Part shown: positions 3,998-55,112 of the stretch, in pieces
Layout of the letters: the number at the start of each line of letters is the position of its first letter
Position numbering within the stretch: position 1 is the stretch's first letter
Made by a program: the position numbers and the translations under genes
Assembly (NCBI GenBank): GCA_937923625.1
Contig: CALDTV010000007.1
Coordinates: 1-64,000, forward strand
DNA: 64,000 nt
DNA from: an uncultured Alphaproteobacteria bacterium
GTDB taxonomy: Bacteria; Pseudomonadota; Alphaproteobacteria; Micavibrionales; Micavibrionaceae
Direction of reading: 5' to 3'
The notes under the pieces: model-generated
What the model was told of the DNA's origin: nothing
The model's input: the letters and a program-made list of their open reading frames with translations, nothing else
The model's database searches: none

Positions 3998-4001
3998 TGA
4001 G

Positions 4002-4502: not shown

Positions 4503-4521
4503 ATCACCTATTCATCGCGCC

Positions 4522-26809: not shown

Positions 26810-26963
26810 AAAATTATTTTTCATAAACTTTTGATTTTAAACGTATTTTTAACTGTTTCTTGCTACTATATTATGGATATAAAGGGCACATAGAGCGTCA
26901 AATTTCCATTCAAAGAACGCCCTGTGATAGAATAAGATATAAGAAAAAATTGGGGTGCGTGCA

Positions 26964-33728: not shown

Positions 33729-34433
33729 TCACGCAATATCTGCCAGCTTAGCGTAGAAATTTTTCCATTGGTTGGGCACTTTATTGCCAAAAGGGCCATC
33801 TTTCGACCGCCAATAAGCAAGAATTTGGGGGAATTGGTTAAACTCCAAATCACCTTCTTTAATAATACGGCGGTCTAATGGAAAAAGCCGCACGCCTTCA
33901 AGCTTTTGATCGCGCATAGCGTAATGCTTTGGCAAAAGAAAATCCTGCATCACCAGCGCTAAAACACGTGGATCATCAGTATGCAACCTTGCTTTTGCTT
34001 CTTCACGTCGGTTCATGAGCGTTTCTAAGGCTTTCTTTGCTGTCTCTGACATTGACCCTTGTGAGATCCGTGCCACATAGATAGCGCGCGCAATATGATG
34101 TAATTCAGTTTGTGATATCTCAGGCAGCCACACCAATACGCCCGAACGCATTTGGTCAACCTTATCTAAATCAAAGCATTGATGGCAAAAAATACAAGCT
34201 GTGATTAAATTTTCTATTTTGTGATTATGATGATCATTATCCAAAAAATGTACATCTTGATATTTTTTAGATTCAAATCCGCAGATTTGACAGATATTTT
34301 TGTCGCGCATTAATATTTTTTGACGAATTTCAGGCGGCAAAACGCCTGTAGCGTCCTGAGGGGCGCTAGAAGAATTTTGAGCACCGCGCTTTTTCTGCGC
34401 GATGCCCAATGAAATAGGATAGGTATTATTCAA
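33729..34433 (-). CDS. dotN: Dot/Icm protein DotN/IcmJ (HNH-like zinc protein)
   Basis: 234 residues from a TTG start one base after the icmD stop; the next Met would cut off the conserved SLGIAQKKRG, so the TTG is preferred. The core is a zinc-binding HNH-like fold: CQICGF, then HFLDNDHHNHKIENL and CIFCHQC. In Legionella DotN (IcmJ) binds the coupling-protein complex of DotL and DotM and is not a working nuclease. After the zinc part, VWLPEISQTELHHIARAIYVAR matches my memory of the IcmJ/TraT C-terminal half. A free-standing HNH endonuclease is the alternative, but operon position favours DotN. Confidence 0.85.
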   Translation of the reverse strand: MNNTYPISLGIAQKKRGAQNSSSAPQDATGVLPPEIRQKILMRDKNICQICGFESKKYQDVHFLDNDHHNHKIENLITACIFCHQCFDLDKVDQMRSGVLVWLPEISQTELHHIARAIYVARISQGSMSETAKKALETLMNRREEAKARLHTDDPRVLALVMQDFLLPKHYAMRDQKLEGVRLFPLDRRIIKEGDLEFNQFPQILAYWRSKDGPFGNKVPNQWKNFYAKLADIA

Positions 34434-34434
34434 T

Positions 34435-34857
34435 TTATGGCGTCACAACACCAAACTGAACAGCGTTTAGACCTGGGCCTTGAACACCCTGACTGACACC
34501 AATTGTATTTTGCATTGCTTCGTAAACCATTGGTAGGGCAAATAGTGCTCCCCCTGCGGCCAAACGAATCGCACCATGCGATAATGGAGCATTTGAAGGG
34601 TTTTCAACGTGATCTTTAATCTTCAAGATCCCCAATACCCCAAGCAAAATACCAAACATATAAGCCAAGCCAGATAAAAGACCTGGTAGGTTTGCAATGG
34701 ATTCTGTCATATTTGCAGCAATATCACTAAAGTCTTGGTTACCTGTGGTACCAGTTCCAATAGCAACCTGCGCTGCGGCATCTTCTGCGCCACTCATAAT
34801 CCCGATTGTTACGGCAGCAGAAAGCTTTAATCCTTGTTTTTTAATAAATGTCATCAT
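34435..34857 (-). CDS. icmD: Dot/Icm inner-membrane protein DotP/IcmD
   Basis: A 140-residue protein with a signal-like N-terminus (residues 9-29) and two further helices (about 57-78 and 93-112). The loop GILKIKDHVENPSNAPL and the AGGALFALP start of the last helix are the signature of the IcmD/DotP and IncI TraQ/TraR family. It is the first gene of the leftward icmD-icmJ-dotO-unknown operon. The ATG has a strong AAAGGAG ribosome-binding site. The same module occurs three times in the protein at 26964-28769. Confidence 0.85.
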   Translation of the reverse strand: MMTFIKKQGLKLSAAVTIGIMSGAEDAAAQVAIGTGTTGNQDFSDIAANMTESIANLPGLLSGLAYMFGILLGVLGILKIKDHVENPSNAPLSHGAIRLAAGGALFALPMVYEAMQNTIGVSQGVQGPGLNAVQFGVVTP

Positions 34858-35150: not shown

Positions 35151-36494
35151 TTATTGCCGAATTTTACCTGTCGTTCCTTGAACGATCCATTTATTTGATT
35201 GATACGAAATAGCGGTAATTCTTCCTATTCCATCCAAAGAATCGCCCACAATAACTGGTTTTAATGATTGTTGACCCTTTTTAGAAACCCACGCCTTCCC
35301 AGGCTGTGCCGCACGCAACTCCCAAGAAACGTTAGAAGCGCTGCGAACATTCGCTTTTTTTCTAGCCACAGGCTGAGAGAGTTGTCGCTCTTTTGGAGGG
35401 GCGGTCACAATCGCATTCGAGGCAGATCGCGTAGACTTTATTGATTGCAGCTGACGTTCGAGAGCCTGCACGCGATTCTGCGCGGCGCTATTCACACGTG
35501 ATATTTCATTTTCCATGTTATTCAAACGCCCCATGATTGTTTCTAATCTTTGCAAGATCAGCTCATCAGTGGCTGAAGAAACAACCTCAACCTCAGGCGC
35601 AAATGTGACCTCTTCCATCACTTCTGAGGTGACGAGAGGAATTTCTTCTAAAGATACGATCTCTGGAACGATCTCTGGGACAATCTCTGGCGCGCTTTCA
35701 ATCATAGTTGTTTGAACGTCCATCTCATCATCAATAAGTAAACTAGACTGATCTTGCGCATCGAACAGAACGACTTCTTCTGCCAGAGACTCACTTACAA
35801 CCACCTCTTCAGTAACGCTCTCTTCTTGCACAGGCGGACGCGGGATTTCTATATTGGAAAGGGTGGGCAATTCTTCCTGTGCAACAGGCATTTCAGCAGA
35901 AACAACAGGCGCTGGCATTGGTGGCGCATCATCTAATTCTACCTTAACAGCATCAAGAGCATCCGTTTCATACAAAAAGCCTTGGCTTGTTGCCGTGTCA
36001 TTTTGGGGTATATTTGCATCAGAATTATTGGGTTGCGCCGTATTTTCAGCTTCTGCTTCCCCAAAAATAGTGCCCTCTGTTGCCCCTTGCAAACTTAAAG
36101 AGGATTGATAACGATTGCTTGGGGCATTTGTCGGCTGAGATTTCGTTAGCTGAAACCCAAAAATGCCAAGACCTAATAAAACAGCCAATCCAATAACAAT
36201 TGTATTAAAACTTAAATTAAATTTTGATTGCTTCTCACCGCCAGCAAGTGGCACTTCGTCATCGTTGAAACTATCTTCGTCCCAATTCTCATCGGCATCG
36301 GCGTTTAATTCATCTTCCGAATAAAAATCATCTTCAACAAAGCCCTCTTCAGACGGTTCTTCTGTGAACTCGGGCTCATTGAAATTCTCATCCTCAAAAT
36401 CATTATCATCGACAAAGTCAGCATCGAAGTCATCTTCAAAACTATCTTCGAGGATTTCGTCGTAAAAATCATCATTTTGCTTATTATCGCTCAT
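35151..36494 (-). CDS. dotF: DotF/IcmG-like Dot/Icm core protein
   Basis: 447 residues: an extremely acidic cytoplasmic tail (1-85), one membrane helix (about 97-116), a long Pro/Glu/Val-rich periplasmic linker, a coiled coil (about 300-345), and a compact C-terminal domain (WELRAAQPGKAWVSKKG, VGDSLDGIGRITAIS). That ending resembles the IcmG/DotF and IncI TraP C-terminus. DotF is an inner-membrane component that contacts DotG in the core complex. Legionella IcmG is about 269 residues, so the linker and tail are enlarged here. It is the last gene of dotI-dotH-dotG-dotF, the TraM-N-O-P order. Confidence 0.7.
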   Translation of the reverse strand: MSDNKQNDDFYDEILEDSFEDDFDADFVDDNDFEDENFNEPEFTEEPSEEGFVEDDFYSEDELNADADENWDEDSFNDDEVPLAGGEKQSKFNLSFNTIVIGLAVLLGLGIFGFQLTKSQPTNAPSNRYQSSLSLQGATEGTIFGEAEAENTAQPNNSDANIPQNDTATSQGFLYETDALDAVKVELDDAPPMPAPVVSAEMPVAQEELPTLSNIEIPRPPVQEESVTEEVVVSESLAEEVVLFDAQDQSSLLIDDEMDVQTTMIESAPEIVPEIVPEIVSLEEIPLVTSEVMEEVTFAPEVEVVSSATDELILQRLETIMGRLNNMENEISRVNSAAQNRVQALERQLQSIKSTRSASNAIVTAPPKERQLSQPVARKKANVRSASNVSWELRAAQPGKAWVSKKGQQSLKPVIVGDSLDGIGRITAISYQSNKWIVQGTTGKIRQ

Positions 36495-36505
36495 AAATAT
36501 TACCT

Positions 36506-37888
36506 TTACTGTCTTAATGGCAAGCTAGTGTTTATACCTTGTCCCGTAAAGGGTAATTGACGCTGCTCTTCTTCACGCTCTTCTAAAAGACGCGGCGTTG
36601 CCGTCACGGCATCTACAAACAAAATACCTAAAGGTGTTCCGGGGGCAACACGTAACATAGGTCTTGTATCATCTACAATCTCATCTAAAATTTCTCCAAC
36701 TTCGGTGGCGGCCTCTTCTAAACCAAGAGCCACTTCTTGATCATCGCTAAGATCATCATTATCCGTCGTTTGTGAGACACTATCCCCTTCAATTGTAATA
36801 GTTGTTCTACCGCTCGTGGCCACGGCTCCCGCAAGCCCTTCAATAAAAGCAGCGGCGGCAGGTAAGGCTATACGGCGCAAATAACGCCTATCAATTTCAG
36901 TGATAACACCCGGCAAACTTGTCGCAGGGTCAATCGCAATTGCACTAATGCTATAATCAATGCCTTCAAGGACAATTGTGTTGAAATCCAACGTTAAGAA
37001 ATTGTAATTTTCTGAAAAACTGCCAATCAAGCGCGCGCCTTTTAAAGGGCCCGTCGCAATTTCAGCCAGTACAGGCCCAGGCGCATCTGTATTCGCTTCT
37101 ATCAAAAGTTGTGCATATTCGATTGTACCTGCCGGCAACAAAATATTGAGATTTTGATTACGGCGCGACGTATTATTTATCCCTAAAGCTTGAGATTGCA
37201 CTTGTGCCTGCGCCAATCTTTCTTCTTCTTGCTGTGCCAGTACTTCAAGGTAATTAATAGGCGTCACACTCTGAACTGAAGGGCCATTAAATGATTGATT
37301 ACCCAAAATTGACTGCATTTGAGTAGACATTGCCTGCGCCATCGCATTCACAGCAATTTCTTTTGGATCAGGGGGCGGGGGCTGTTGTGGTTGTTGCACT
37401 TCGACGCGTTGCGGCTGCTGAGTTTGCTGCTCTTCAATGCGCTGCTCTTGCATCCGACGCCAACGCTCTAATGGGTCTTCTTCTTCTGGCTCTTCAAACT
37501 GTGCTTCAATAGTACCTTTGGAAACGCCCGTTGGAATTGGTAAAACGCTATCGGCGGTGCGAACAGCATCTTCTGTGCGGCGAACATTTTCTTCTTCTAT
37601 ACGTTCAAGATATTCTTGAGATACTTCTGCGCTTCCAGGCGCTTCGGTGACATCACTTCCCCCACTCACGCGCGAGATTGTCTTTTGTTCTTTTTCCCCA
37701 CCGAATAAAATGATCCCGCCAATAAGCAAAGCAAGACCCAAAAGAATGATTCCTATTTTTAAAAAAGGGTTGTTACGCCATAGATCACCAAGCGTTCCCT
37801 TTTCGCTCTCCATATCGCCAAAGCCGTCATCTTCAAAATCTAAATCGGCATCAAAATCATCGTCGAAATCATTATTGTTATCGCTCAT
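36506..37888 (-). CDS. dotG: Dot/Icm core protein DotG/IcmE (VirB10-like)
   Basis: 460 residues: acidic cytoplasmic tail (1-35), membrane helix (about 43-63), a coiled-coil and Gln/Pro-rich linker, and a C-terminal VirB10-like domain. That domain includes LPAGTIEYAQLLIEANTDAPGP, GPLKGARLIGSF and LDFNTIVLEGIDY. DotG spans both membranes and forms the central channel with DotH. Legionella DotG is about 1050 residues because of a large pentapeptide repeat region; this protein lacks it and is near the size of IncI TraO. The start has a GGGAGG site and overlaps dotH by 11 bases. The tail shares the MSDN start and DDFDAD motif with the neighbouring DotF. Confidence 0.88.
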   Translation of the reverse strand: MSDNNNDFDDDFDADLDFEDDGFGDMESEKGTLGDLWRNNPFLKIGIILLGLALLIGGIILFGGEKEQKTISRVSGGSDVTEAPGSAEVSQEYLERIEEENVRRTEDAVRTADSVLPIPTGVSKGTIEAQFEEPEEEDPLERWRRMQEQRIEEQQTQQPQRVEVQQPQQPPPPDPKEIAVNAMAQAMSTQMQSILGNQSFNGPSVQSVTPINYLEVLAQQEEERLAQAQVQSQALGINNTSRRNQNLNILLPAGTIEYAQLLIEANTDAPGPVLAEIATGPLKGARLIGSFSENYNFLTLDFNTIVLEGIDYSISAIAIDPATSLPGVITEIDRRYLRRIALPAAAAFIEGLAGAVATSGRTTITIEGDSVSQTTDNDDLSDDQEVALGLEEAATEVGEILDEIVDDTRPMLRVAPGTPLGILFVDAVTATPRLLEEREEEQRQLPFTGQGINTSLPLRQ

Positions 37889-39059
37889 TTGAAAAATCCC
37901 TCCCAGCTTTCAAATTTGCCCGAACGAAACGGCCATTGTCAGATAAAAGTAAAACAGGCGTTTCTTCTAAAACATAGACATTCATGCCATCCGCAGAAGC
38001 CACAGATTGACTCCACCCTGGGGACAAAAGCGTCAAAGGCGTCCGCACATAAGTTTGTGACCCGATTTTATAAGCGCTTGTCCGCCCATCTGTTCCACCG
38101 ACTTGTAATTTTTCTGCACCATTGGGAACAACACCGTCCAACACACCCATCACAGAAACATTTCCAGCAACAAGCGCGTTACTACTGCTGCCCGTATCAA
38201 TAATTGACGCTTCGGCAAAAGGGCCATATTCAGGAACAATCGCATCAACGCGATATTGCACTTCGTCTTTACTGGTTGAAAGCATGACTGTCACAGGCGT
38301 CTTCAAATTAAGCAGTCGAATAGACATATTCCCGTAAGCGGCAATTGACATCGGTGTAATACGCATAATATTTCCGCCTTCTTCTGGCTCAACCACTTCA
38401 AAATCACCCGCCCAACTAATATCTTGTATTGGCCAAGGCGCGCCTGTCACGTCCAGCATGCTGACTGTCGTAATATGGCCTGTTGCCGTTATCAGTTTTA
38501 TCGGCGCCACGCCAGGATCAAGGGAAATGTTCGCAACGTTAATCTTTGGTGTAGGGACGCCATATGCAGGAGTTTCAGTCGCGCGCTGTGTCTTATCATA
38601 TTCTTGCAATAAAGCTTGAATTTGATCGGGGGTGAGGGGGAAAAGCCCTGTAATGGCCGCATCAAAAGATTCTTGGCGAATTTCCTCCGCCAACTCTTCA
38701 GGCGATTTTTGCTCTAGGTTTTGATTTATTTGGGGCAAATTCAACCCTGCCGCATCTTCATTCACGAAACCAGAATTATAATTTTCTGGGGCACTACGAA
38801 TATTTTCAGAAGGGATTGTCGGCAGAGCATCACTTTCGTTATAAATCACATCTTCTTGGGCTGTTGGCAGCTGCTGTTGCGAAGGCTCTTCTTCCAAAAA
38901 ACTCTCAAGAGTAACCTCTTGTTGCGCCGCAACTTTTTCTATTGGCATAGAAATTAAAAAAGAAGCCACAAAAACCACTGCCGCGATGCAGTGTGTGGTC
39001 CAAAAATTCTCTTTAGTATGAAGACGCAATTTCATCAAAAATAAATACCTTAAAAACAC
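37878..39059 (-). CDS. dotH: Dot/Icm outer-membrane core protein DotH/IcmK
   Basis: 393 residues with an N-terminal export signal (hydrophobic about 25-40, cleavage near VAAQ). The start may instead be the second Met at 39035. After a Gln/Pro-rich region the C-terminal half has the DotH pattern: PIKLITATGHITTVSMLDVTG, PWPIQDISWAG, MSIRLLNLKTPVTVML and a final LSPGW segment. DotH is the VirB9-like protein of type IVB systems, reaching the outer membrane with DotC and DotD and joining DotG. Its place between dotI and dotG is the standard order. Confidence 0.88.
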   Translation of the reverse strand: MFLRYLFLMKLRLHTKENFWTTHCIAAVVFVASFLISMPIEKVAAQQEVTLESFLEEEPSQQQLPTAQEDVIYNESDALPTIPSENIRSAPENYNSGFVNEDAAGLNLPQINQNLEQKSPEELAEEIRQESFDAAITGLFPLTPDQIQALLQEYDKTQRATETPAYGVPTPKINVANISLDPGVAPIKLITATGHITTVSMLDVTGAPWPIQDISWAGDFEVVEPEEGGNIMRITPMSIAAYGNMSIRLLNLKTPVTVMLSTSKDEVQYRVDAIVPEYGPFAEASIIDTGSSSNALVAGNVSVMGVLDGVVPNGAEKLQVGGTDGRTSAYKIGSQTYVRTPLTLLSPGWSQSVASADGMNVYVLEETPVLLLSDNGRFVRANLKAGRDFSNER

Positions 39060-39074: not shown

Positions 39075-39812
39075 CTAACCTGGGACCGCAATCCATTGTG
39101 CAATTCCAACACCATTCGGGCTCTCTAATCGGGGGACACGAACAATCACAAGCGTTACAATCCATTGATCAGAGCGTTTTTGTGACCCTGATTGATAAGA
39201 CAGCACCAATGGCACCTGAACAACCCATTGATATTGACCATTTTCAACCGATTGAGATTGTAAAACAGGCGCGCCCCTTGGAGCCGCAGAAATAACCTGA
39301 GAATTAGCTTCAATCGATTCAAGGATACGCGCAGATTGTAATGCGCCCGTAAAACTTTCCCAGCCTCTTCGTGTAAAGAAACGTGAAGATTCCTGCAATC
39401 GACGACGATAATCATTAAAACCAAATGTCATAACTTCTGTTGCCGCTTGTGCGACCCAAGACATTAACGCTGGATTACTTAAATTTGGTTGATTAAGCGA
39501 TACCATGGGGATCAGGCGACCATCTTCAGTTGTCGCAAAATAGCGATTCTCTGGCTGATGCACCTTAATAAGGAAAAACATGGCGGCAATTAAGCCAACA
39601 ATGATAAAGCTTTGTATGACTGAGACGCGCAACGCCATGCGATAACCGTCACGATAATATTCATTACGTAGCTGAACTTTACCAAGACCACCCATTTCTT
39701 GGCCGTCAGCCTTTGTTTGCATCACTTTTTTGGGCTTACCACGCGTTGGTTTACGCGGTGCGGGCCTTAAGCTACGTGGTTTTTTTGCCATATCGGAAGA
39801 TGCGTCAGACAT
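39075..39812 (-). CDS. dotI: Dot/Icm inner-membrane protein DotI/IcmL
   Basis: 245 residues: a strongly basic cytoplasmic tail (10-35), a membrane helix (about 62-83) after NEYYRDGYR, and a periplasmic VirB8-like domain with FATTEDGRLIPMVSL and SWVAQAATEVMTFGFNDYR. DotI forms ring-like assemblies at the inner membrane. The NxxYRDxYR string before the helix is typical of IcmL/TraM. It is the first gene of the dotI-dotH-dotG-dotF operon and is divergent from the five-paralogue operon across 283 bases. An AAAAGG ribosome-binding site precedes the ATG. Confidence 0.9.
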   Translation of the reverse strand: MSDASSDMAKKPRSLRPAPRKPTRGKPKKVMQTKADGQEMGGLGKVQLRNEYYRDGYRMALRVSVIQSFIIVGLIAAMFFLIKVHQPENRYFATTEDGRLIPMVSLNQPNLSNPALMSWVAQAATEVMTFGFNDYRRRLQESSRFFTRRGWESFTGALQSARILESIEANSQVISAAPRGAPVLQSQSVENGQYQWVVQVPLVLSYQSGSQKRSDQWIVTLVIVRVPRLESPNGVGIAQWIAVPG

Positions 39813-40095
39813 ATTTATAAAAAGCCTTTTAACAAGCGTTGTTGTATAACAAGTTATAAGATAAACACTTTATAGCGATTTATCAAAATAATCCCATAAA
39901 AACTATCATCTATTGCCAGTTGACCACAAGCCAAGACAATAAGACAAATTCTAACCGATAAAAGAGAAAAATTAAGATCAAATAGCGCTCTTTCTATTTC
40001 GTAATGTGCTTTTTACTGTCAGAATATGATAAAATTTTAAGGATATAGTTTTTTAGGCTATTTTAAAAAGAGTACTTTAAGCAAGAAATTACATT
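39813..40095. promoter_or_regulatory. Divergent control region between dotI and the five-paralogue operon
   Basis: AT-rich gap serving both directions. On the dotI side, GATAAA/TTTATC arms flank a TATAAA (about 39859-39883), similar in design to the icmD promoter palindrome. AATAAGACAAATT lies at 39938-39950, matching the motif upstream of the icmD and dotD operons with one change. Promoters for the rightward operon are not clear. Confidence 0.5.
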
Positions 40096-41871
40096 ATGGC
40101 GTACAGAGCAAACAAACAAACCATTGATATAAAAGCATTTTTATGCTTTTTATTTGTTTTTTGTATTCTATCAACGCCCGTGCATGCGCAACGCGATGAA
40201 GATCAACAAACACAAGATTTGACCCTCACAACTGCGCTCACCAAAGCGCAAGGCCTTGGTAATGCAACATCTATTGATCAAGTTGATGCCTTTAGAGACC
40301 CTAATATTATTCGTGCGTTTCAATATGAGCTAAGAACAAGCACACAGGATGATTATAACCCGAACCGTAACAGTCGTTATGCCGCTGATATGGTTTTACG
40401 CGTCGTAAAAGCGGATATGACGCCGGAAGCTTATGAAGAATTCTTACGGAACGAATATTTTGATTATAATCCTTACCTAAAAATATTTGAGGTGTTGCAG
40501 AACACAAATAGCAGCCTTGCAAGCCTGGTCAGCAATATAGACAGCGATCGTCTAGATTCCCTGATTAGGGAGCTTCGCAATAATGCTGAAGCGGCTAATA
40601 TCGCAACCACAACCGTCCCTATTGGCACCATAGGATCAGGCACATCATGTTCGGCTAGTTGCCCAGCCACTTGTGGTCAATGCCCCACAAAAATTAGGAA
40701 CAACCACGTTGATATTCGCAACCACACATCACAAGAATTTGCAGAACATCGTGATTGGATACGAAAAGAATTTTTCTTAGAAAATATTTTACCCGCGCTG
40801 CAGCTTATGACCGTTCAATTATCAACAACAGCGATGCAGCAAACACAAATTATTGGAACGTTTTTTGATGCCAAGCATCAATTAGAAACACAGCGTATTT
40901 TTCAACAGCTTACAACAAAGGCGCATAAAGATTACCACCCCAGCGAGGGCCTCTGCACAATTGGTACAAATATTCGTTCCTTAGCCGCATCAGAGCGTAA
41001 ATCTAACCTAGTCCATCAAACAATTGCCCAGCGCATGATGGATCGCCAGCTTTTATCTGGAGATGGCTTATCCACCTCTGGCGCTACAAGCGATAGACGA
41101 AGCCGCCTTAAGATGTTTATTGAAAATTTTTGTAATAAAAATGATGGTGGAGGAAGCCTTTTCGCCCTTTGTGAAAATGGCACTGCCGACCCCAAACAAG
41201 TTAATATGGATGTTAATTTTACCGGCGCCGTTGAAGATAAGCTTACGTTAGATATTAATTTTAGCAATAATGGTATCAACCAACTAACACCCGATGAAAA
41301 AAATATATTTTCTCTTGGCGCTAATCTTTTTGCCAACGAAGTTCTACCCAATAATTTAACGGAGGCCGTTTTAGCGAATAGATCTTTACGGCCAACCAGC
41401 ATGGCAAATTATTATTTAGACATCCGCGCCGTGGCTGCAAAAAGAAGCGTAGCGCAAAATTCATTTGCGGCTATCACATCCTTAAAAGCGCAAGGCGACG
41501 ATAGTTCAGCGCCTTTTTTAAAAGCCATCCTGAGGGAAACAGGTATTAACCCCAATGACATTGAAGATCGACTAGGCAAAAAACCAAGTTACTTTGCCCA
41601 AATGGAAGTTTTGACAAAAGACCTTTACCAAAACCCAACTTTTTACGCCAATCTTTACGACAAACCTGTAAATGTCGAACGCAAAGGCGTGGCATTGCAG
41701 GCGATTGAATTAATGCAAGATCGTGATTTATACAAAAGCTTATTAAGAAGCGAAGCGGTTTTAGCAACCCTAGTTGAAACCTTGCTAAGAAGTGAGCACG
41801 ATAGAATATCAAACGAAATAAACGGATTAGACCTAGATGGTGAACGCATTAACACAGCGGGGTCACGATGA
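40096..41871 (+). CDS. Secretion-linked exported paralogue 1 (with extra N-terminal domain)
   Basis: 591 residues with a signal peptide (about 12-31, VHAQ). Residues 35-180 are a helical region found in this member only. A cysteine cluster follows (C185, C189, C193, C196), then the shared core. The core has F-x-x-H-x-x-W at about 215-221, a long helix LQLMTVQLSTTAMQQTQ, the near-invariant IGTFFDAKHQLETQR (253-267) and AHKDYHPSE with C287. In its second half are KPSYFAQMEVLTKDLYQNP and NLYDKPVNVERKGV. No known family is recognised and there are no membrane helices beyond the signal, so it is periplasmic or exported. It begins an operon divergent from dotI and ends in a 4-base overlap (ATGA) with the next paralogue. 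Confidence 0.8.
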   Translation: MAYRANKQTIDIKAFLCFLFVFCILSTPVHAQRDEDQQTQDLTLTTALTKAQGLGNATSIDQVDAFRDPNIIRAFQYELRTSTQDDYNPNRNSRYAADMVLRVVKADMTPEAYEEFLRNEYFDYNPYLKIFEVLQNTNSSLASLVSNIDSDRLDSLIRELRNNAEAANIATTTVPIGTIGSGTSCSASCPATCGQCPTKIRNNHVDIRNHTSQEFAEHRDWIRKEFFLENILPALQLMTVQLSTTAMQQTQIIGTFFDAKHQLETQRIFQQLTTKAHKDYHPSEGLCTIGTNIRSLAASERKSNLVHQTIAQRMMDRQLLSGDGLSTSGATSDRRSRLKMFIENFCNKNDGGGSLFALCENGTADPKQVNMDVNFTGAVEDKLTLDINFSNNGINQLTPDEKNIFSLGANLFANEVLPNNLTEAVLANRSLRPTSMANYYLDIRAVAAKRSVAQNSFAAITSLKAQGDDSSAPFLKAILRETGINPNDIEDRLGKKPSYFAQMEVLTKDLYQNPTFYANLYDKPVNVERKGVALQAIELMQDRDLYKSLLRSEAVLATLVETLLRSEHDRISNEINGLDLDGERINTAGSR

Positions 41872-43169
41872 TGAAAAGATTATTTATTATTTCACTCTTG
41901 CTGGTTTGTTTTTCCGTCACTTTGGGTACGCCCTCCATCTCTTATGCGCAATCATCATGTGGCTCGGCCTGTAATTGTCCGTGTAAGGCAGGTATCGAAA
42001 GCAATCATGAGGATATACGCGAGCGCGCCACAGAAGAATTTGTGCGGCATAAAACATGGATGATTGATGAATTTTTTATTAAACATGTTCAGCCCGCTCT
42101 GGCATTAATGACAGCACAGTTATCTGCATTATCGATGCAGCAAACCCAAATTATTGGAACATTTTTTGATGCAAAGCATCAATTAGAAACCCAGCGTATT
42201 TTTCAAAAACTAATGGCTGATACGCATAAAGATTATCAACCCAGTGAAGGACTTTGTGAGATTGGGACAAATATTCGCTCCTTAGCCGCTTCTGAAAAAA
42301 ATACGGATCTCACCCATGAAGTCTTTGCGGCGTGGATCATGGCGCGGCAAACATTAAACAGCGATGCCGTTGCGGCAGCAGGGCCAGAGTCTGATTTATT
42401 AAGCAGGGTCGATTTGTTCCGCACGACACATTGCCGCAGCGAGGATAATAATGGTGGCTTAGGTTTTCTTTGCGATAAGAAAAATGGCAAAGCTATTCCC
42501 TATAATGCAGCGCGACACAATAAAGATACAGATTTCACCCGAACACTTGAAGCCCAACTGACATTGGATATTGATTTTTCAGGCGCATCCGTCAATACAG
42601 CCACCACTGACACGCAAGATATCTTTGCCCTGACCGCTAATTTATACGGACATACGCCGCCGCCTGTTATACCTGCAAGAGTTTTAGCCACCAAAGAAGG
42701 GTTTCCGCGCGAAGCGGCAACTGATTACATGAATCTGCGGTCTATCATGGCCAAAAGAAGCGTAGCACAAAATTCAATGACCGCCCTCGCGGCTTTAAGA
42801 ACATCAGGTGACCCTGAAGTAGCGCGTTATTTAAAAAAGATTGTCACAGAATTAGGGATCGCAGATAACGAAGTAGAAGATATCTTGGGTGAAAAGCCGA
42901 GCTATTTCGCGCAGATGGAAGTTTTAACAAAGGATCTATACCAAAATCCTACTTTTTATACGGAGCTGTATGACAAGCCAGCGAATGTCACCCGAAAAGG
43001 CACAATGTTAAAAGCCATTCATTTAATGCAAGATCGCGATTTCTTTGAAAGTCAGCTTCGCAGTGAAGCTGTCTTGGCAGTCATCTTAGAGCAAATGCTT
43101 AATGATGAAAATAACCGCGTGAGCAGTGAATTAATAAATCTTCGCCCTGGCGGGGAGGCCGCACAATGA
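41868..43169 (+). CDS. Secretion-linked exported paralogue 2
   Basis: 433 residues: signal peptide (about 4-27, SYAQ), short cysteine cluster (C31, C35, C37, C39), then the shared core directly. The core has F-x-x-H-x-x-W at 58-64, IGTFFDAKHQLETQR at 96-110, HKDYQPSE with C130, and the C-terminal PSYFAQMEVLTKDLYQNPTF and ELYDKPANVTRKG. It is closest to paralogue 1 in the core and lacks its extra domain. Three core cysteines (LC-EIGT, HC-RSED, LC-DKK) are kept as in all five. It overlaps both neighbours by 4 bases, so the genes are translated as a chain. Confidence 0.8.
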   Translation: MMKRLFIISLLLVCFSVTLGTPSISYAQSSCGSACNCPCKAGIESNHEDIRERATEEFVRHKTWMIDEFFIKHVQPALALMTAQLSALSMQQTQIIGTFFDAKHQLETQRIFQKLMADTHKDYQPSEGLCEIGTNIRSLAASEKNTDLTHEVFAAWIMARQTLNSDAVAAAGPESDLLSRVDLFRTTHCRSEDNNGGLGFLCDKKNGKAIPYNAARHNKDTDFTRTLEAQLTLDIDFSGASVNTATTDTQDIFALTANLYGHTPPPVIPARVLATKEGFPREAATDYMNLRSIMAKRSVAQNSMTALAALRTSGDPEVARYLKKIVTELGIADNEVEDILGEKPSYFAQMEVLTKDLYQNPTFYTELYDKPANVTRKGTMLKAIHLMQDRDFFESQLRSEAVLAVILEQMLNDENNRVSSELINLRPGGEAAQ

Positions 43170-44554
43170 TAAGACAATTCTTCACAAGTTTTGCTGTAAT
43201 TATACTTATTAGTTTTTCTTTTGTGAGTGTCCCCACGAGCCAAAGCCATGCCGCATCATGCTCTTCAAACTGTGGTTGTTGTGCACAGGGAATAACCCAA
43301 TGCCAAAGTTTTTGTATTTGCACATCTAATAATCAAACAGGTGATAAAGATACGCCGAGCACGACAATAGGGCATATAACAAAAGAATTTGTTGATCATC
43401 GCGATTGGATGGCAAACACTTTTTTTAAAGATAATACGGCAGGAAACGAGAGAGGCTTACTGGCTTCTTTGCAGTTAATGACGGCGCAGCTTGCCACAAA
43501 TGCCATGCAACAAACCCAAATTATTGGGACGTTTTTTGATGCAAAACATCAATTAGAAACACAACGATTATTTCAACAACTAACGGTTCGCGCACATAAA
43601 GATTATCACCCCAGCGAAGCATTATGCGAGTTTGGGACAATGACTCGCTCCTTAGCCTCTTCATCTAGAAATACTGATTTGTCTTCTTCAATATTTGCCA
43701 AACGCGCGATTGATCGGCAATTATTATCTGGCGGAGGCCTATCGGTAGACGGACGTGAAAGTGACCAAAAAAGCAGATTGGTTCAATTTGTTAAAAAATA
43801 TTGCAACCCCGCCGATAACGCCCGTAACTTAAACTTACTATGTTTAAAATCGGATAATGATAGCGCATTATTTAATAAAGATATTAGCTATACATCAACA
43901 TTAGAAACGCCCAAAACATTAGACGTGGATTTCACATCAACTGGCGCCAATACTAAAACGCCCAAAGAAGAAGCGTTATTTGCCCTTACGGCCAATTTGT
44001 TTGCGCATAATACTTTCCCTTTTGTTTCTAAGGCAAAGTTTTTAACCAATGATGGAAAACCCAATTTAGAAGCAGGCGCCAAAGATTATATGGATGCACG
44101 GGCTGTTATAGCCAAGCGCAGTGTTGCGATGAATAGTATAGCGGCGATTGCGGCGATGAAATCCCAAGGGGATACAGAATCAAGGCCGTTTATTTATGCA
44201 CTCATTGAAGAAATGGGGGGCGATAAAATGACATTGGCGGAGATTGAAAGAGCCATCGGCAAAAAACCTAGCTATTTTGCACAAATGGATGTTTTGACGA
44301 AAAAGCTTTATCAAATGCCCAGCTTTTACGCTGAGCTTTATGATAAGCCAGCGAATGTACTGCGAAAAGATGTGGCGCTTCAAGCCGCCACCTTGATGCA
44401 AAAACGCGACAGCTACCGTAGCTTTTTGCGCAGTGAGATGACTTTAGCAACAATGTTAGAAACGGCATTAATGGTGGAGCAAGAACGCGTCACCAACGAA
44501 GTGCGTAAAGCCCGCCAAATAGGGGGATCAAGAAATTTAGGTGTTGTGAAATGA
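43166..44554 (+). CDS. Secretion-linked exported paralogue 3
   Basis: 462 residues with a signal peptide (about 5-30) and the richest cysteine cluster: C32, C36, C38, C39, C46, C50 and C52. The core carries F-x-x-H-x-x-W at 75-81, IGTFFDAKHQLETQR at 120-134 and AHKDYHPSE with its cysteine at 154. Near the end are KPSYFAQMDVLTKKLYQMPSF and ELYDKPANVLRKD. A small insertion (TAGNERG) precedes the LQLMTAQL helix. The ATG overlaps the previous stop and its own stop overlaps the next start. The even cysteine spacing suggests disulfides or a metal site; function is unknown. Confidence 0.8.
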   Translation: MIRQFFTSFAVIILISFSFVSVPTSQSHAASCSSNCGCCAQGITQCQSFCICTSNNQTGDKDTPSTTIGHITKEFVDHRDWMANTFFKDNTAGNERGLLASLQLMTAQLATNAMQQTQIIGTFFDAKHQLETQRLFQQLTVRAHKDYHPSEALCEFGTMTRSLASSSRNTDLSSSIFAKRAIDRQLLSGGGLSVDGRESDQKSRLVQFVKKYCNPADNARNLNLLCLKSDNDSALFNKDISYTSTLETPKTLDVDFTSTGANTKTPKEEALFALTANLFAHNTFPFVSKAKFLTNDGKPNLEAGAKDYMDARAVIAKRSVAMNSIAAIAAMKSQGDTESRPFIYALIEEMGGDKMTLAEIERAIGKKPSYFAQMDVLTKKLYQMPSFYAELYDKPANVLRKDVALQAATLMQKRDSYRSFLRSEMTLATMLETALMVEQERVTNEVRKARQIGGSRNLGVVK

Positions 44555-45888
44555 TAATAGTCAAAAATAAACAACATAAACTGAAAATCAGGCTGATATT
44601 TTTAAGCTTCTTTATTGCACTCGCCTGCATTTTAACAACGATCCCCAAAACAGCAAACGCAGGCTGTTGCAATCCTTGTGGTAGTAAGTGCTCCTCAAAA
44701 GTAGAAAGCTGTGCCGAAGACGGCTGTGAATGCCAATCAAATGCTGAAACGCCCGTTACAGTCAAACATATTACAAAACAGTTTCTTGATCATCGCGGCT
44801 GGATCATAAATGTTTTTTGGGAAGGCCACGTCTTACCATCAATGATGTTAATGTCAGAGCAAATTACTGCCACCGCCATGCAACAAATGCTTATACTGGG
44901 CACGTTATTTGACGCAAAACATCAATTAGAAACCCAGCGCTTGTTACAAACAATGCAGGCGCAAGCGCATAAGGATTACCACCCCAGCGAAGGCATGTGC
45001 CAGTTTGGAACAACAATACGTTCCCTAGCGGCGTCTGAGCGCAATAGTGACTTAACCCAAATTGGCTTGGCGGCGCGCCACACCCAAAGGCAATTATTAA
45101 GTGGTGACGGAATCAGTAGCGCCGATACTTTTAGCCGCTTGCAGCAATATCGCTCAACATATTGCAACAAAAATGATTTAAGCGGTGGGGCAGCAAATCT
45201 TTGCCAAAATAACGGTGAGGTTAGGATCAACAAAGATGTCAATTACACCGAAACAATTTATAACCAAGGAACACTGGATTTAGATTTTACGGATAACCTC
45301 GTGGAAGGGGATGAGGAAGACGCCCTCTCACTCGCTATTAATCTATATGGTGAACGTCTTGTTGATCCTGTCCTTGAATATAGGCTTGCTGATGAAGATG
45401 GCAGGGTAAACACAATAGGATCAAACGCTTATATGCTAGTGCGTTCGCATGCCGCAAAACGAAGCGTTGCCTATGCTGCTTATGCCGCACAAACGGCGAT
45501 GAAAGCCAAAGGCGAAGAGAATGTAAAGCCCTACCTAGAAGCGATTCTAAAGGAAATGGGCATCAGAGAAAGTGACATTACAGACATGATTGGCGAGCGC
45601 CCAAGCTATTATTCACAAATGGATTTACTAACAAAGAAGCTCTATCAAACACCTAATTTTTACTCTGATCTTTACGATAAGCCCGTCAATATTGATCGTA
45701 AAAATGTCTCTATGCAGGCGATTGGTTTAATGCAAAAACGTGACACATATAGAAGCCAGCTGCGTAGCGAAGCAATCATGTCAGTCTGGCTGGAGACAGC
45801 CTTAAGCGATCAAGAAGCGCTTTACATTAATGAAATTAACAAATTGCAAGATAATACAACTATCCTTCAATTGGAGGGATTAAAGTAG
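44551..45888 (+). CDS. Secretion-linked exported paralogue 4
   Basis: 445 residues: basic start, signal peptide (about 12-37, ANAG), cysteine cluster (C39, C40, C43, C47, C54, C59, C61), then the core. It is the most diverged of the cysteine-bearing members. FF in the motif is changed to LF (LGTLFDAKHQLETQR), the motif F-x-x-H-x-x-W is kept at 78-84, and the end reads RPSYYSQMDLLTKKLYQTPNF and DLYDKPVNIDRKN. It is followed after one base by a small unrelated gene, then the fifth paralogue. Confidence 0.8.
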   Translation: MIIVKNKQHKLKIRLIFLSFFIALACILTTIPKTANAGCCNPCGSKCSSKVESCAEDGCECQSNAETPVTVKHITKQFLDHRGWIINVFWEGHVLPSMMLMSEQITATAMQQMLILGTLFDAKHQLETQRLLQTMQAQAHKDYHPSEGMCQFGTTIRSLAASERNSDLTQIGLAARHTQRQLLSGDGISSADTFSRLQQYRSTYCNKNDLSGGAANLCQNNGEVRINKDVNYTETIYNQGTLDLDFTDNLVEGDEEDALSLAINLYGERLVDPVLEYRLADEDGRVNTIGSNAYMLVRSHAAKRSVAYAAYAAQTAMKAKGEENVKPYLEAILKEMGIRESDITDMIGERPSYYSQMDLLTKKLYQTPNFYSDLYDKPVNIDRKNVSMQAIGLMQKRDTYRSQLRSEAIMSVWLETALSDQEALYINEINKLQDNTTILQLEGLK

Positions 45889-45889
45889 A

Positions 45890-46312
45890 ATGAAAAATAC
45901 AAAAATTATTATCTCCTTGGCATGCCTTATCATCTTATGTGGTGGTTTTTATTTTTTATCTGTGCCCAGTGAAGAGGCACCAAATAAAAAAAGCAAAAAC
46001 TTAACAACCATTAACGCCCAAAGCGATATCAAAGGACAATATCGTTTTTCTTTTGAAGACAATAAAATTATTGACGCTATTTTTACTATTGGAAAAGAAA
46101 ATATTGTTATCAAATTATCAGGCTTAAAATCTCGGCAACCGCTTGGCATCATAACAGGTGGCCGCACGATTCTCTCACCAGTTCCAGCTGATTGGGCAGG
46201 CCGCATTATATTCACATTGCCAAAGGCCACGATTGTTGCTCCCATTTGCCTGTTCTTTAATGATAAAAGCCAAAAATTATGCCACTCTTTTGAAAATAAG
46301 GAGGGCCTATGA
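45890..46312 (+). CDS. Small unknown membrane-anchored protein within the paralogue operon
   Basis: 140 residues with an N-terminal helix (about 5-24) ending in the periplasm, no lipobox, and a beta-rich remainder (QYRFSFED, ENIVIKLSGL, RIIFTLPKATIV) with cysteines at 118 and 129 or so, able to pair. It shows no resemblance to the flanking paralogues and no family I know. One base separates it from paralogue 4 and it overlaps paralogue 5 by 4 bases, so it belongs to the same translated chain. Confidence 0.65.
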   Translation: MKNTKIIISLACLIILCGGFYFLSVPSEEAPNKKSKNLTTINAQSDIKGQYRFSFEDNKIIDAIFTIGKENIVIKLSGLKSRQPLGIITGGRTILSPVPADWAGRIIFTLPKATIVAPICLFFNDKSQKLCHSFENKEGL

Positions 46313-47472
46313 GATTTTTTATAACATTTATTTTATGCCTAACTATTCTTGTTATGCCTTCACGCGCCCATGCCGAGGATGAAACAAATACAAAAATAAA
46401 TTGGGTTGGTGGCTTACAGTTAATGACCACGCAATTGACATCAACCATGTTGCAACAAATGCAAGCCATTGGGACTTTTTTTGATGCAAAGCACCAGTTA
46501 GAAACTCAAAGATTATTTCAAGAAAAAACAGCGCAGGCGCATAAGGATTACCACCCATCTGAGCAAATGTGTGAAATAGGAACATTTGTACGTAACCTTG
46601 CGGAAAGTGAACAACGCGCAAAACTAAGTCACAGCACAATGACACAAGGTATGATCCAACGTGCCTTAAAAACTGGCGGTGCAAAAACATCAGGAATTGG
46701 TATGGATGATGATACGCGCCTGCGGGGATATATTGAAAAATTTTGTAGCGTTAAAGATAACGCCCAGCAGAATAAACGTCTTTGTAAAAGCTCAGTCCCC
46801 GCAGATAAGCAGAATGCTGATATTAACTTCACAAAAACCATCGATCTGCCTTTGACGCTTGATGTCAATATGACAGACAGCATTGTTGATAACGATGAAG
46901 AAAATATTTTTGCGTTTTTGGATTATATTTTTATGCATGACTCGTTTCCATGGATTGCAAAGGATAAAACAACACTCGCAAAATTTATTGAGCCCTATCA
47001 AGATATGCGCTCCCTTATCGCCATGCGCTCCGTTGCACAAAATAGCTTTGCTTATATTATATCGGAAAAAACGCGTAGCACAGATGTCAGCGACGCAAGC
47101 AACGCTCCTTATATTAAGGCATTAATGCGTGAGTTAGGCGTCGGTGATGATGAAATTAAAGATATGCTCGGGGATAACCCAAGTTACTACGCGCAAATGG
47201 AAATGCTGACGAAAAAGATTTATCAGCACCCTGAATTTATTAGTAATCTTTATGATAAGCCCGCCAACGTGAAACGTATCAAAGCAGCCCTAACAGCCAT
47301 TAAAACCATGCAAGATCGCGACATACACCAAGCCATGCTCCGCCGTGAGATGCTGATGTCGATGGTTTTAGAGCTTAATTTACGTAAGAAGCAAACGGAT
47401 GTGGATCAAAGAGTCCTTTCAGCCAATATTGGCGAGATAAATAGTGGCGCAACCTCAAATAATGGTTTTTAG
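46309..47472 (+). CDS. Secretion-linked exported paralogue 5 (no cysteine cluster)
   Basis: 387 residues, the shortest member: signal peptide (about 3-22, AHAE) and then almost at once the core helix LQLMTTQLTSTMLQQMQ, IGTFFDAKHQLETQR (54-68) and AHKDYHPSE with C88. Both the cysteine cluster and the F-x-x-H-x-x-W motif are missing, so the core can stand alone. The end has NPSYYAQMEMLTKKIYQHPEF and NLYDKPANVKRIK. It closes the operon; flgK follows after 114 bases with its own promoter. Confidence 0.8.
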   Translation: MRFFITFILCLTILVMPSRAHAEDETNTKINWVGGLQLMTTQLTSTMLQQMQAIGTFFDAKHQLETQRLFQEKTAQAHKDYHPSEQMCEIGTFVRNLAESEQRAKLSHSTMTQGMIQRALKTGGAKTSGIGMDDDTRLRGYIEKFCSVKDNAQQNKRLCKSSVPADKQNADINFTKTIDLPLTLDVNMTDSIVDNDEENIFAFLDYIFMHDSFPWIAKDKTTLAKFIEPYQDMRSLIAMRSVAQNSFAYIISEKTRSTDVSDASNAPYIKALMRELGVGDDEIKDMLGDNPSYYAQMEMLTKKIYQHPEFISNLYDKPANVKRIKAALTAIKTMQDRDIHQAMLRREMLMSMVLELNLRKKQTDVDQRVLSANIGEINSGATSNNGF

Positions 47473-51256: not shown

Positions 51257-51445
51257 GTCCGCTATCATAAAGCGGCATCGCTGACGGGAAAAATCGTCAC
51301 GCGGCCCTTTCGCTGGGCTTTGCGTATTTTGTACGCTGATTATTGAAGGCCCCCCACCCCCCATAAAATAACGAACAAACTGGGTTGGCGGATAAGCCAA
51401 TAAAAACAGCTACTTAGAAATATACCGCCCGCTTAATGAGGCGGT
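51257..51445. other. Cluster of six hairpins between convergent flgL and the TcpQ-like gene
   Basis: Successive short perfect stems: CCGCT/AGCGG (51259-51275), TGACG/CGTCA (51282-51299), GCCC/GGGC (51304-51318), GCGTA/TACGC (51322-51336), TTGGC/GCCAA (51385-51400) and ACCGCC/GGCGGT (51424-51445). The last one touches the stop of the leftward gene and is probably its terminator. A C-rich tract lies at 51350-51362. The first four may form a small structured RNA or the flgL 3' end. Confidence 0.5.
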
Positions 51446-52233
51446 TATTGAATGATAACTTGTCTGCCTTGGATCGTTGCACGCATATTTTTTGAGCGCA
51501 ACATATCATTCAAGGCCTGGTCCCATGGCTTCCCCCCTTGCCACGAAACGATAGTGCCTGCATCAATGTTTCCCGAAAAGCTATGACTATAATCATTTGG
51601 GATGATCTGCGATAAGGCCAATGCCAATGGTAAATCCCGACCAAAACCAACAGCTTCGGCATAAGAATTTTTCGTAGGCAAACCAGCTCTATTTAATGGG
51701 GCTGGCTCTCCCCCCTGCATCGGCGTCATCGACGAAGGACGCAATGAAGCTGGCGATCGTGGCTGTAGGACAGATGGGCTTTTATTGCTTAAAAAAGGAG
51801 CAGGAGGGCTAATTTTTGCACTCGATGCCATACCGTTCCCCAATTTAACGGGGTTCATAATACCCGCGCTCTCAATCATTGCTTGATCAATCGAAGCGGC
51901 GTTCATTTGTCTGTAAACTTTTTCAGGATTGGGGTTTCTTAAAGGATAGGGATTTATATAAAGCCCAGAACCAGTTGGTCGTTTCATTTGCATTTGAGGA
52001 CTGGCGGCTGAGGGTGCATTTAATGGAGCCGGCATAGAAGCAATGGGGGGCACAACAGGCGTACGTGTTACGGGCGCTAAAGGAACGCGGGCGACAGGGG
52101 GCGGCGCCATAACAGCGCGCTGCGGCGTGATGGTTGGCGCAGGCATATTTTTTGGAGGCACCCACTCGAACCCAGCGTAAGATACTGAAATAAAACTAAA
52201 AAATACTGTTAAGGCGACAAATAATATGCGCAT
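51445..52233 (-). CDS. TcpQ-like exported protein in the dotDCB operon
   Basis: 262 residues from the ATG at 52233, which gives a clean signal peptide (MRILFVAL to SVSYAG); an ATG six codons upstream lacks a ribosome-binding site. The middle is Pro/Ala/Arg-rich and disordered. The last 75 residues (LPLALALSQIIPNDYSHSF, GTIVSWQGGKPWDQALNDML, then MRATIQGRQVIIQ) resemble the TcpQ/PilL C-terminal domain, which in pilus and secretion systems steadies an outer-membrane ring. DotD has a related secretin-N0-like fold, so this could be a second DotD-like subunit. It is the last gene after icmT, 80 bases downstream. Confidence 0.65.
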   Translation of the reverse strand: MRILFVALTVFFSFISVSYAGFEWVPPKNMPAPTITPQRAVMAPPPVARVPLAPVTRTPVVPPIASMPAPLNAPSAASPQMQMKRPTGSGLYINPYPLRNPNPEKVYRQMNAASIDQAMIESAGIMNPVKLGNGMASSAKISPPAPFLSNKSPSVLQPRSPASLRPSSMTPMQGGEPAPLNRAGLPTKNSYAEAVGFGRDLPLALALSQIIPNDYSHSFSGNIDAGTIVSWQGGKPWDQALNDMLRSKNMRATIQGRQVIIQ

Positions 52234-52312
52234 AAGCTTTCTTTCGATCATTAAATATGTGATTTAAAGCAAATTATCGCGATATTTGATAAAAAACAAG
52301 GAAGATATTAAA

Positions 52313-52634: not shown

Positions 52635-53795
52635 TCAACCACTGCCAGTAGAGTTTGATAGTAAAATATACGTACGGCGGTCAATATCGCCGCGATCAAA
52701 CGCTAACTCCGCACTTTTTGCCATGCTCTGCCCATAAAAAGGCAACATACGTTGGATTTCGACCTGCCATTCTTTGAAATCCATATCCATTAGCTTATCA
52801 CGTACCTCATCGCTAAAAATCATCCATTCGCGAACGCCCAAACGTCCACCAGAGACTTTAGAAACCAAATTTTGGGTTACGACCATGCGTAATGTTTCCA
52901 TTAAAGCATAAGCACGCTCTGATCTTTCATTTGGATTAAAGGCTGAGACCATGCGTTGAATTGTCGCTGCAACTCCCGTTGTGTGCGTTGTTGTATAAAC
53001 CGTATGACCCGTTTGCGAAGCTTCAATGGTTGAAGAGATTGTTTCTTTATCGCGTGATTCACCGACCAAAATCACATTTGGCTTGCGCCGCAAAGCATTT
53101 CGTACGCCTTGCGCAAAGTCAGGTAGATGGCGCGGAATTTCCGTTTGCGAAATTAGCGAGCGCGGGGATTTGATCACATCATAAACATATTCGATTGGCG
53201 CTTCGTAGGTGACTAATTTGCCGCAACCACGTTTTTGTTCCATCATCATGCGAATTCCTGCGGCCAATAAAGTCGTTTTACCCGACCCTGTTGGCCCCGT
53301 AATCACGACCAAGCCCTGACGCGGATTCCATGAATTTATAATTTCTTCTTCAATATTTAAATCTGCCATTGTTGGCGGCTCGTTTGGCAAAACCCGCATG
53401 GTAATTTGCGCTGAATCCCGACCGCGTGACAAAATTGCTGTAATATTCACACGAAAACGAATACGGGTATAACGATCAGGGCGCACTTCATAAGACAAAT
53501 CTAAATCATTGGCAGAAGCCAAGCGTGCGGATGCTTCAGGGCCATAAATCTTGGTTAAAAAGACATTCATATCTGCCGCATCTAGAGGGCGATAAGTACC
53601 GGGATAAAGCGTTCCATGAATTTCATTGTAAACTGGCCTGTCAGTTTGGATAGAAATATCAGAAGCATTTTTTTTGACACACCAAAGCAGAAAGTCATCG
53701 ACAAGGTCATCGGTAAAACGTGCGGGCTCATGAGGCCACGTTTCTGCAGTATTGTCTTTACCTTTTAAAAGGCTTACCGGTTTGCGGGCTGCCAT
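52635..53795 (-). CDS. dotB: Dot/Icm secretion ATPase DotB
   Basis: A 386-residue PilT/VirB11-like hexameric ATPase. Walker A is GPTGSGKTTL (about 165-174), followed by the Asp-box region YEAPIEYVYD, the VGESRDKETI Walker B, and the histidine box TTHTTGVAATIQRM. It powers substrate transport at the cytoplasmic base of the machine. Its first codons overlap the end of dotC by 22 bases. Confidence 0.95.
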   Translation of the reverse strand: MAARKPVSLLKGKDNTAETWPHEPARFTDDLVDDFLLWCVKKNASDISIQTDRPVYNEIHGTLYPGTYRPLDAADMNVFLTKIYGPEASARLASANDLDLSYEVRPDRYTRIRFRVNITAILSRGRDSAQITMRVLPNEPPTMADLNIEEEIINSWNPRQGLVVITGPTGSGKTTLLAAGIRMMMEQKRGCGKLVTYEAPIEYVYDVIKSPRSLISQTEIPRHLPDFAQGVRNALRRKPNVILVGESRDKETISSTIEASQTGHTVYTTTHTTGVAATIQRMVSAFNPNERSERAYALMETLRMVVTQNLVSKVSGGRLGVREWMIFSDEVRDKLMDMDFKEWQVEIQRMLPFYGQSMAKSAELAFDRGDIDRRTYILLSNSTGSG

Positions 53796-54601: not shown

Positions 54602-54608
54602 AAAAATG

Positions 54609-55112
54609 TTACCTTCCAACACCCGTAATGGGTGCATAGTGGAGCTCAACCAGACGGCGTTCGCTGTCAACTTTCACATCAGCACGTAAGCCGAGCTGTA
54701 AACCGATATCACGCAGAATATCAATAACAGGCTTGTTCTCAGCATCAATATTAACACTTAAAGGAACTGGCGGCGCATCACCAACAGCCAAGAAAGTATA
54801 GCTAGCGCGGCTGGCTGCTTGACGCAGTAATTGTTCTGGCGGGCCAACCCACGTTATTGTCATGGCGCGCCTTAATTCAGATGGCGCATTGCGAATAGGC
54901 TGAACCGCAATTGATGGCGCACGCGATTGCTCTACGGTTGCAAGTGTTTGTAAAGCGTTGGACGCTTTATCAGCGGCTTCCGCCAACATTAAGGAAACTT
55001 TATCTGGCGATGTCAAAACCTGTGGATCACGTTCTATCCGGTTATGCTCACACGCCGTAAGGCTGGGCAATACCAACAAGAGAGCGAATAAAAAAGAAAT
55101 TTGTTTTTTCAT
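54609..55112 (-). CDS. dotD: Dot/Icm outer-membrane lipoprotein DotD
   Basis: A 167-residue lipoprotein with lipobox LTAC (lipid cysteine at about 21). The C-terminal half, WVGPPEQLLRQAASRASYTFL, PVPLSVNIDAENKPVIDILRDIGLQLG (parts WVGPPEQLL and ILRDIGLQLG) and VELHYAP, matches the DotD/TraH domain, which has the N0 fold of secretins. It sits in the outer membrane with DotC and DotH. It heads the dotD-dotC-dotB-icmT-TcpQ operon. Confidence 0.9.
   Translation of the reverse strand: MKKQISFLFALLLVLPSLTACEHNRIERDPQVLTSPDKVSLMLAEAADKASNALQTLATVEQSRAPSIAVQPIRNAPSELRRAMTITWVGPPEQLLRQAASRASYTFLAVGDAPPVPLSVNIDAENKPVIDILRDIGLQLGLRADVKVDSERRLVELHYAPITGVGR

Follow-up and report, generated by a model that had tools for sequence, protein, structure and literature searches.

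In reviews of type IVB secretion systems, IcmX is treated as the equivalent of TraW and VirB5, and DotA as the equivalent of TraY and VirB6, with pentamers described for these components (PMC12624023, PMC12857230). In Legionella, five IcmX and five DotA subunits form a central protochannel that gates transport; rearrangement of the DotA—IcmX protochannel on activation is described in a further review (PMC12981334). Here we analyze a window of 64,000 nucleotides (the whole stretch of DNA under study; GenBank assembly GCA_937923625.1, contig CALDTV010000007.1) from an uncultured alphaproteobacterium of the Micavibrionaceae, in which an array of five tandem paralogous genes lies next to dotI. We find that the five encoded proteins are probably divergent, tandemly amplified members of the IcmX/TraW (VirB5) class, the periplasmic stalk subunit of type IVB systems.

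Similar to IcmX of Legionella Dot/Icm (PDB: 9ngy), the paralogues have a putatively exported, all-helical core with a matching predicted fold, belong to the same type of secretion system, and have a DotA partner in the source genome. However, Legionella has a single IcmX and a single DotA, compared with five and three in the source genome, and it differs from the present set in that four copies carry a cysteine-rich N-terminus and relatives carry extra N-terminal domains. With TraW of IncI1 (R64) and other MPF_I plasmids, the paralogues share profile homology over 300 columns, three common cysteines, and either DotI/DotH or DotA/TraY as neighbors, with IcmW in some cases; in contrast, R64 has one annotated TraW copy and serves plasmid conjugation rather than a chromosomal system. 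Further TraW-like genes adjoin TraW in some plasmids of Pseudomonas, Acidovorax, Xanthomonas, and Yersinia, and the second and third such genes on Pseudomonas and Acidovorax plasmids (L165:6790-7884, L166:12267-13361, L173:3624-4799, L175:1687-2460 and 3659-4903) indicate that TraW has been duplicated in tandem outside Micavibrionales as well.

The nearest precedents that we found for such an amplification come from type IVA systems. TrwJ of Bartonella Trw, likened to the paralogues by its B5 stalk/tip structural class, shows a tandem amplification pattern (PMC2883598), but it is co-amplified with TrwI and TrwH in one block, whereas here DotA is amplified at a separate locus. RvhB6a-e of Rickettsia are five VirB6-like central-channel paralogues retained over the long term with divergent extra regions (PMC2653234); there the amplified subunit is B6, whereas here both B5 and B6 are amplified. 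The protein class is known. A limited literature search returned no report in which a chromosomal type IVB system has tandem IcmX/TraW arrays (up to five or six) together with tandem DotA. With the present assignment, what looked like a five-gene family of unknown kind would be the central-channel subunit that had seemed to be missing from a type IVB system, and this system is conserved across Micavibrionales.

The array and its relation to IcmX and TraW

The array and the region preceding it comprise the following features.

39813..40095, between divergent genes: intergenic region of 283 bp separating dotI from the array, from sequence
40096..41871, forward strand: IcmX/TraW-family paralogue 1, 591 amino acids; putative signal peptide, extra N-terminal segment of about 160 residues, cysteine cluster, core
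41868..43169, forward strand: IcmX/TraW-family paralogue 2, 433 amino acids; the copy that was folded; core Cys130, Cys189, and Cys202
43166..44554, forward strand: IcmX/TraW-family paralogue 3, 462 amino acids
44551..45888, forward strand: IcmX/TraW-family paralogue 4, 445 amino acids
45890..46312, forward strand: exported or anchored open reading frame (ORF) of 140 amino acids within the operon, of a family unrelated to the paralogues
46309..47472, forward strand: IcmX/TraW-family paralogue 5, 387 amino acids; assigned to the "last-copy" orthologous class; without the cysteine cluster

An earlier note on this DNA had described five tandem exported paralogues with a shared core, and our analysis bears this out. 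The core alignment contains about 80 invariant columns, with copies 1, 2, 4, and 5 being 43-50% identical to copy 3, and the FDAKHQLETQR motif occurs five times at the DNA level against a chance expectation of 0. By inspection, all five N-termini resemble signal peptides, with a clear n-region, a hydrophobic stretch, and an AxA-like site. The cysteine cluster, likewise identified by inspection, lies just behind this N-terminus in three copies and behind the extension in copy 1. For the extra N-terminal segment of copy 1, 22 related loci yielded no detectable relative, and Pfam searches of the N-terminal extensions gave nothing convincing. No sixth paralogue was found in the source genome at the sensitivity used. 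In two close relatives, the core of copy 2 is interrupted midway by a large insert (L036:8321-10558, L051:7921-10008).

Two details of the layout held in part. The proposed chain of 4-base overlaps is present as ATGA stop/start overlaps between copies 1 and 2, 2 and 3, and 3 and 4, but copies 4 and 5 are separated by the 140-residue ORF, which had been left out; this ORF begins after a 1-base gap behind copy 4, shares an ATGA overlap of 4 bases with copy 5, and occurs in only some related loci. A control region shared with dotI had also been proposed, and while the divergent 283-bp intergenic region exists, a promoter scan of it gave no excess over shuffled sequence.

The earlier note was aware of no named protein of Dot/Icm or conjugation systems that has this core, and a new family unrelated to any such protein would fit the simplest searches: when single proteins or a five-row profile were compared by sequence with Pfam, NCBIfam, and the PDB, no family was returned for the paralogues. 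Weak Pfam matches to GATase_2 and DNA_topoisoIV were below cut-off, each in one paralogue, and were rejected. The five-row profile gave no match outside Micavibrionales, and a deeper profile was needed. The latter retrieved one protein (L152) from an alphaproteobacterium outside the order, adjoining a type IVB locus, which has a weak NCBIfam TraW match (E 3e-5) and also matches proteins of Pseudomonas MPF_I plasmids that adjoin DotA/TraY and IcmW.

This bridging protein was left out of the profile-profile comparison to exclude a chain of weak links. When 149 Micavibrionales paralogues were aligned by hhalign to 13 plasmid TraW-family proteins, R64 TraW among them, the match had a probability of 99.6 and E 1.9e-23 over 300 columns at 20% identity. 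As controls, 18 other families from the same loci were run alongside DotA and TraW in permuted or reversed form; all had E >= 0.058 and probabilities below 1. In hidden Markov model (HMM) searches, the TraW profile matches all five window proteins (2e-9 to 1e-14), and the reverse search with the paralogue profile matches most plasmid TraW proteins (1e-9 to 4e-24). Core residues Cys130, Cys189, and Cys202, conserved in 95-98% of the paralogue rows having the position, align with TraW Cys122 (13/13), Cys175 (10/13), and Cys185 (8/13), and the AHKDYHPSE-plus-cysteine motif is the counterpart of "Y.LSP..C" in pND6-2 TraW. The five paralogues are homologous to TraW. They are distant members of the wider IcmX/TraW family and, with no match to the NCBIfam TraW equivalog model, not TraW equivalogs.

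Structure prediction points in the same direction. The AlphaFold 2 model of copy 2 has a predicted local distance difference test score (pLDDT) of 90, and in a Foldseek search of 350,542 PDB chains its sole match below E 0.001 is 9ngy chain AP1 (E 6.2e-5, prob 1.00), from the Legionella DotA—IcmX protochannel entry. We take chain AP1 to be IcmX, because DotA is chain FP1 of the same entry. VIA-align superposes copy 2 and AP1 with a Z of 13.1 over 242 residues at 12% identity, the next match reaching Z 6.2. A separate model of a last-type copy from a relative (pLDDT 74) again has IcmX as its first match, with Z 11.0. The paralogue core is therefore predicted to adopt the IcmX fold. In the same pLDDT 74 model, the N-terminal extension is predicted to form an immunoglobulin (Ig)/C2-like beta-sandwich, for which the PDB gave only general Ig/C2-like matches that suggested no ligand; paralogue 5 of the window is without this domain, which most of its relatives carry.

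Against a new family stand the profile-profile E of 2e-23 to TraW, IcmX as the sole significant structural match, and the shared cysteines; we consider it very improbable, and within the reach of these tools it is refuted. The suggestion of a possible IcmX/TraW equivalent had been made with reserve, and the results go further, since sequence profile, cysteine pattern, and fold identify the proteins as IcmX/TraW homologues. Similarly, IcmX/TraW had been listed as otherwise missing here, whereas the array itself would be that subunit in amplified form.

A caution concerns the TraW profile, which in MPF_I plasmids also picks up some M23 peptidases through their C-terminal part. To judge from the alignments, this seems to be a genuine domain common to both C-termini and not noise. 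The M23 metallopeptidases with a domain resembling the TraW C-terminus (L176:5377-6381, L170:7261-8424, L173:4796-5935, L175:5658-6524) appear, from their sequences, as if a cell-wall hydrolase docked to the site of the stalk subunit.

History of the copies, DotA partners, and possible ring composition

In a tree of the Micavibrionaceae copies, the last copy forms one clade apart from the other copies in 63/64 loci (support 98) and constitutes one ancient orthologous group, while the non-last copies duplicate partly by lineage. Elsewhere in the order, families f3 and f5 have in common their own orthologous groups, four tandem and one dispersed, and families f2, f4, and f6 have two copies each. 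The tree across families was built with FastTree and has long branches, so its deep branches are uncertain. Outside the order, tandem IcmX/TraW genes occur as four copies in lineage G158 and as two copies adjoining DotA in G274. The tree topology thus suggests that the amplification arose independently in several lineages and that the resulting sets were kept. The alphaproteobacterial lineage G158, with its four tandem copies, also has four DotI-like genes in a row (L147:10730-13647).

Among 48 intact loci, the array has five copies in 29, three in 12, four in 5, two in one, and six in one; in the six-copy locus (L098), one gene looks split. The idea that there are exactly five because of a five-fold ring gained no support, as five is the commonest number (29/48) but 2, 3, 4, and 6 occur.

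The putative partner is also amplified. On another contig of the source genome, a DotA/TraY alignment search located three tandem homologues of 921, 899, and 905 amino acids with 1-base overlaps (G000:C11, 62335-70516; loci L181/L182). The first scores 272.6 bits against TIGR04346 (cut-off 100), and the second and third were found by profile; the Pfam DotA model, which is short, had no match in the source genome. A DotA tree for Micavibrionaceae has three copies in every genome, and four in two, largely orthologous by position; one genome of the family (G033) gave no DotA match. One copy is present in the outgroup families f2, f6, and f7, and separate duplications are seen elsewhere. The DotA triplication is ancient in Micavibrionaceae. 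A strict one-to-one relation of IcmX and DotA copy number was rejected, with exceptions both ways.

By analogy with Legionella, the paralogues would (I) be exported by Sec, (II) form disulfides, perhaps with help from a linked DsbG-like protein, and (III) rest on the DotA paralogues along the axis of the cage formed by DotG and DotH. At rest, they would close the conduit, and on activation they would extend it towards the contacted cell. The N-terminal extensions present on some copies, such as the Ig/C2-like beta-sandwich on many last-type copies, may be fast-changing contact modules.

Translational coupling, long-kept distinct classes, the shared strict core, and the triplicated partner lead us to propose mixed rings, in which at least one obligatory last-type subunit combines with one or more cysteine-cluster subunits at a ratio kept by translational coupling; we hold this to be plausible, though slightly short of an even chance. 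More tentatively, the channel as a whole may be heteromeric, in contrast to the homomeric five-fold protochannel of Legionella, with three DotA paralogues carrying several specialized IcmX paralogues, most often five, and ring positions that may differ chemically, a state reached independently in several Micavibrionales lineages. Of the hetero-oligomeric periplasmic structure suggested earlier, what is supported is a periplasmic component with several paralogues that is consistently linked to the type IVB system; the hetero-oligomer itself is favored but unproven by these features.

A serious rival to the mixed ring, although in our view a less likely one, is a Bartonella-like set of alternative tips, in which every paralogue would build a separate homomeric stalk or tip, with the copies serving as a repertoire for different target cells. 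In the Bartonella Trw system, amplified trwJ (VirB5) and trwL (pilin) are tied to host-specific adhesion (PMC2883598). The variable copy number, the lineage-specific duplication of the early copies, and the fast change of the N-terminal extensions, with that of copy 1 having no relative in related loci, all agree with such a repertoire. However, the copies are translationally coupled and kept as stable orthologous sets, and a loose repertoire would not need the last copy retained in 63/64 loci. Moreover, the rate of change of the paralogue cores in related loci is about that of DotG and DotH, and no faster.

The distinctness of the last-type class, which is without the cysteine cluster and often has the beta-sandwich domain, also invites a division of labor with no mixed ring. 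Here, one paralogue, probably the last type, would be the true IcmX stalk, and the others would have become soluble or surface-bound components of that apparatus, such as chaperones, plugs, anchors, or exported adhesins. In some families, one copy with a long extension is indeed found far from the others, but these dispersed copies do not cluster with the Micavibrionaceae last copy. In addition, strict core motifs and cysteines are common to all five proteins, which suggests one shared binding surface. We consider this division improbable.

Several observations weigh against assigning the array to an amplified IcmX/TraW stalk. NCBIfam NF033888 (conj_TraW, an equivalog model with a cut-off of 100 bits) matches neither the five proteins nor anything in the whole genome. 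Most of the long N-terminal helix (residues 39-123) lies outside the fold match to IcmX, and a Z of 13 comes close to values that chance alone can give for helical proteins, so that the weight is carried by the margin over the next match and by the sequence comparison. Finally, the array varies from 2 to 6 copies, and IcmX and DotA numbers do not follow each other one to one, with two paralogues and three DotA in G031 and five paralogues and one DotA in G040.

If the ring is mixed, it would provide a natural system in which each stalk subunit can be separately removed or labeled, and this would allow a direct study of how such channels open and come into contact with a target cell.

Type IVB genes around the array and their distribution

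A profile of the five paralogues finds relatives in 49/58 Micavibrionales genomes searched, the source genome included, and in 64 further loci, nearly all labeled Micavibrio or Alphaproteobacteria. DotH is present in 53/58 of these genomes, in one copy each. Outside the order but in the same class (286 genomes, deep profile), homologues occur in 5/10 genomes with DotH against 0/276 without it (p 1.6e-8). The proposed link to type IVB genes is upheld: we found no significant match to a known family unrelated to secretion, and all 5 homologue-bearing genomes outside the order are DotH-positive.

The commonest gene order is dotO to dotI on the reverse strand, the array on the forward strand, flgK, flgL, the gene for a protein with an STN domain, and dotB-dotC-dotD on the reverse strand. 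Because flgK and flgL directly follow the array in most Micavibrionaceae, the paralogues could be flagellar or surface proteins that merely lie near type IVB genes. In other families of the order, however, the array follows directly behind DsbC-LT (transglycosylase)-dotD-dotC-dotB-STN on the same strand (L115, L118, L122, L124), and in these loci and in L120 the array keeps company with dot genes, while no flagellar gene was found next to it; in L098, it lies between two dot blocks with flgK and flgL not adjoining. A flagellar assignment is hence scarcely credible, and the array is linked to type IVB genes across Micavibrionales in at least two arrangements.

In the window, the type IVB and associated genes are as follows.

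30596..33595, reverse strand: DotO/IcmB (TraU)-like ATPase, from position, length, and a weak VirB4 match
33729..34433, reverse strand: IcmJ/DotN (NF038221 above cut-off)
34435..34857, reverse strand: IcmD-like small membrane protein (DUF6750, below cut-off)
35151..36494, reverse strand: membrane protein of 447 amino acids at the TraP/DotF position, between DotG and the IcmD-like gene; placed by order only, compared with R64, with no family match
36506..37888, reverse strand: DotG/IcmE (TraO) (NF033900, E 1e-46)
37878..39059, reverse strand: DotH/IcmK (TraN) (PF12293, E 9e-75)
39075..39812, reverse strand: DotI/IcmL (TraM) (PF11393, E 4e-63; NF038072)
51445..52251, reverse strand: exported protein with an STN domain at its C-terminus (PF07660, E 2e-4, below cut-off; synteny)
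52635..53795, reverse strand: DotB (TraJ) ATPase (best match TIGR02524 DotB, E 5e-115)
53774..54670, reverse strand: DotC (TraI) lipoprotein (PF16932, E 1e-77)
54609..55112, reverse strand: DotD (TraH) lipoprotein (PF16816, E 1e-32; NF033882)
56946..57794, reverse strand: DsbG/DsbC-like disulfide isomerase (NF008657 above cut-off; synteny, linked to dotDCB across the order)

Downstream, the order is array, flgK, flgL, STN protein, DotB, DotC, DotD, transglycosylase, and DsbG-like isomerase. In other families of the order, the STN-domain gene sits between dotB and the IcmX/TraW array. The DsbG/DsbC-like isomerase is a candidate folding factor for the cysteine-bearing paralogues.

The Micavibrionales count epibiotic predators of bacteria among their members. 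For M. aeruginosavorus ARL-13, the published genome paper stated that there was no evidence for a type IV system (PMC3189940). In a metagenome-assembled genome labeled M. aeruginosavorus (L062), which is not ARL-13 itself, dot genes and the array are both present.

The window also encodes, at 26955-28769, a membrane protein of 604 amino acids whose C-terminus is TraQ-like and whose N-terminal half contains repeated HYNLA-type motifs. In relatives, a TraQ-like gene lies inside the dot cluster.

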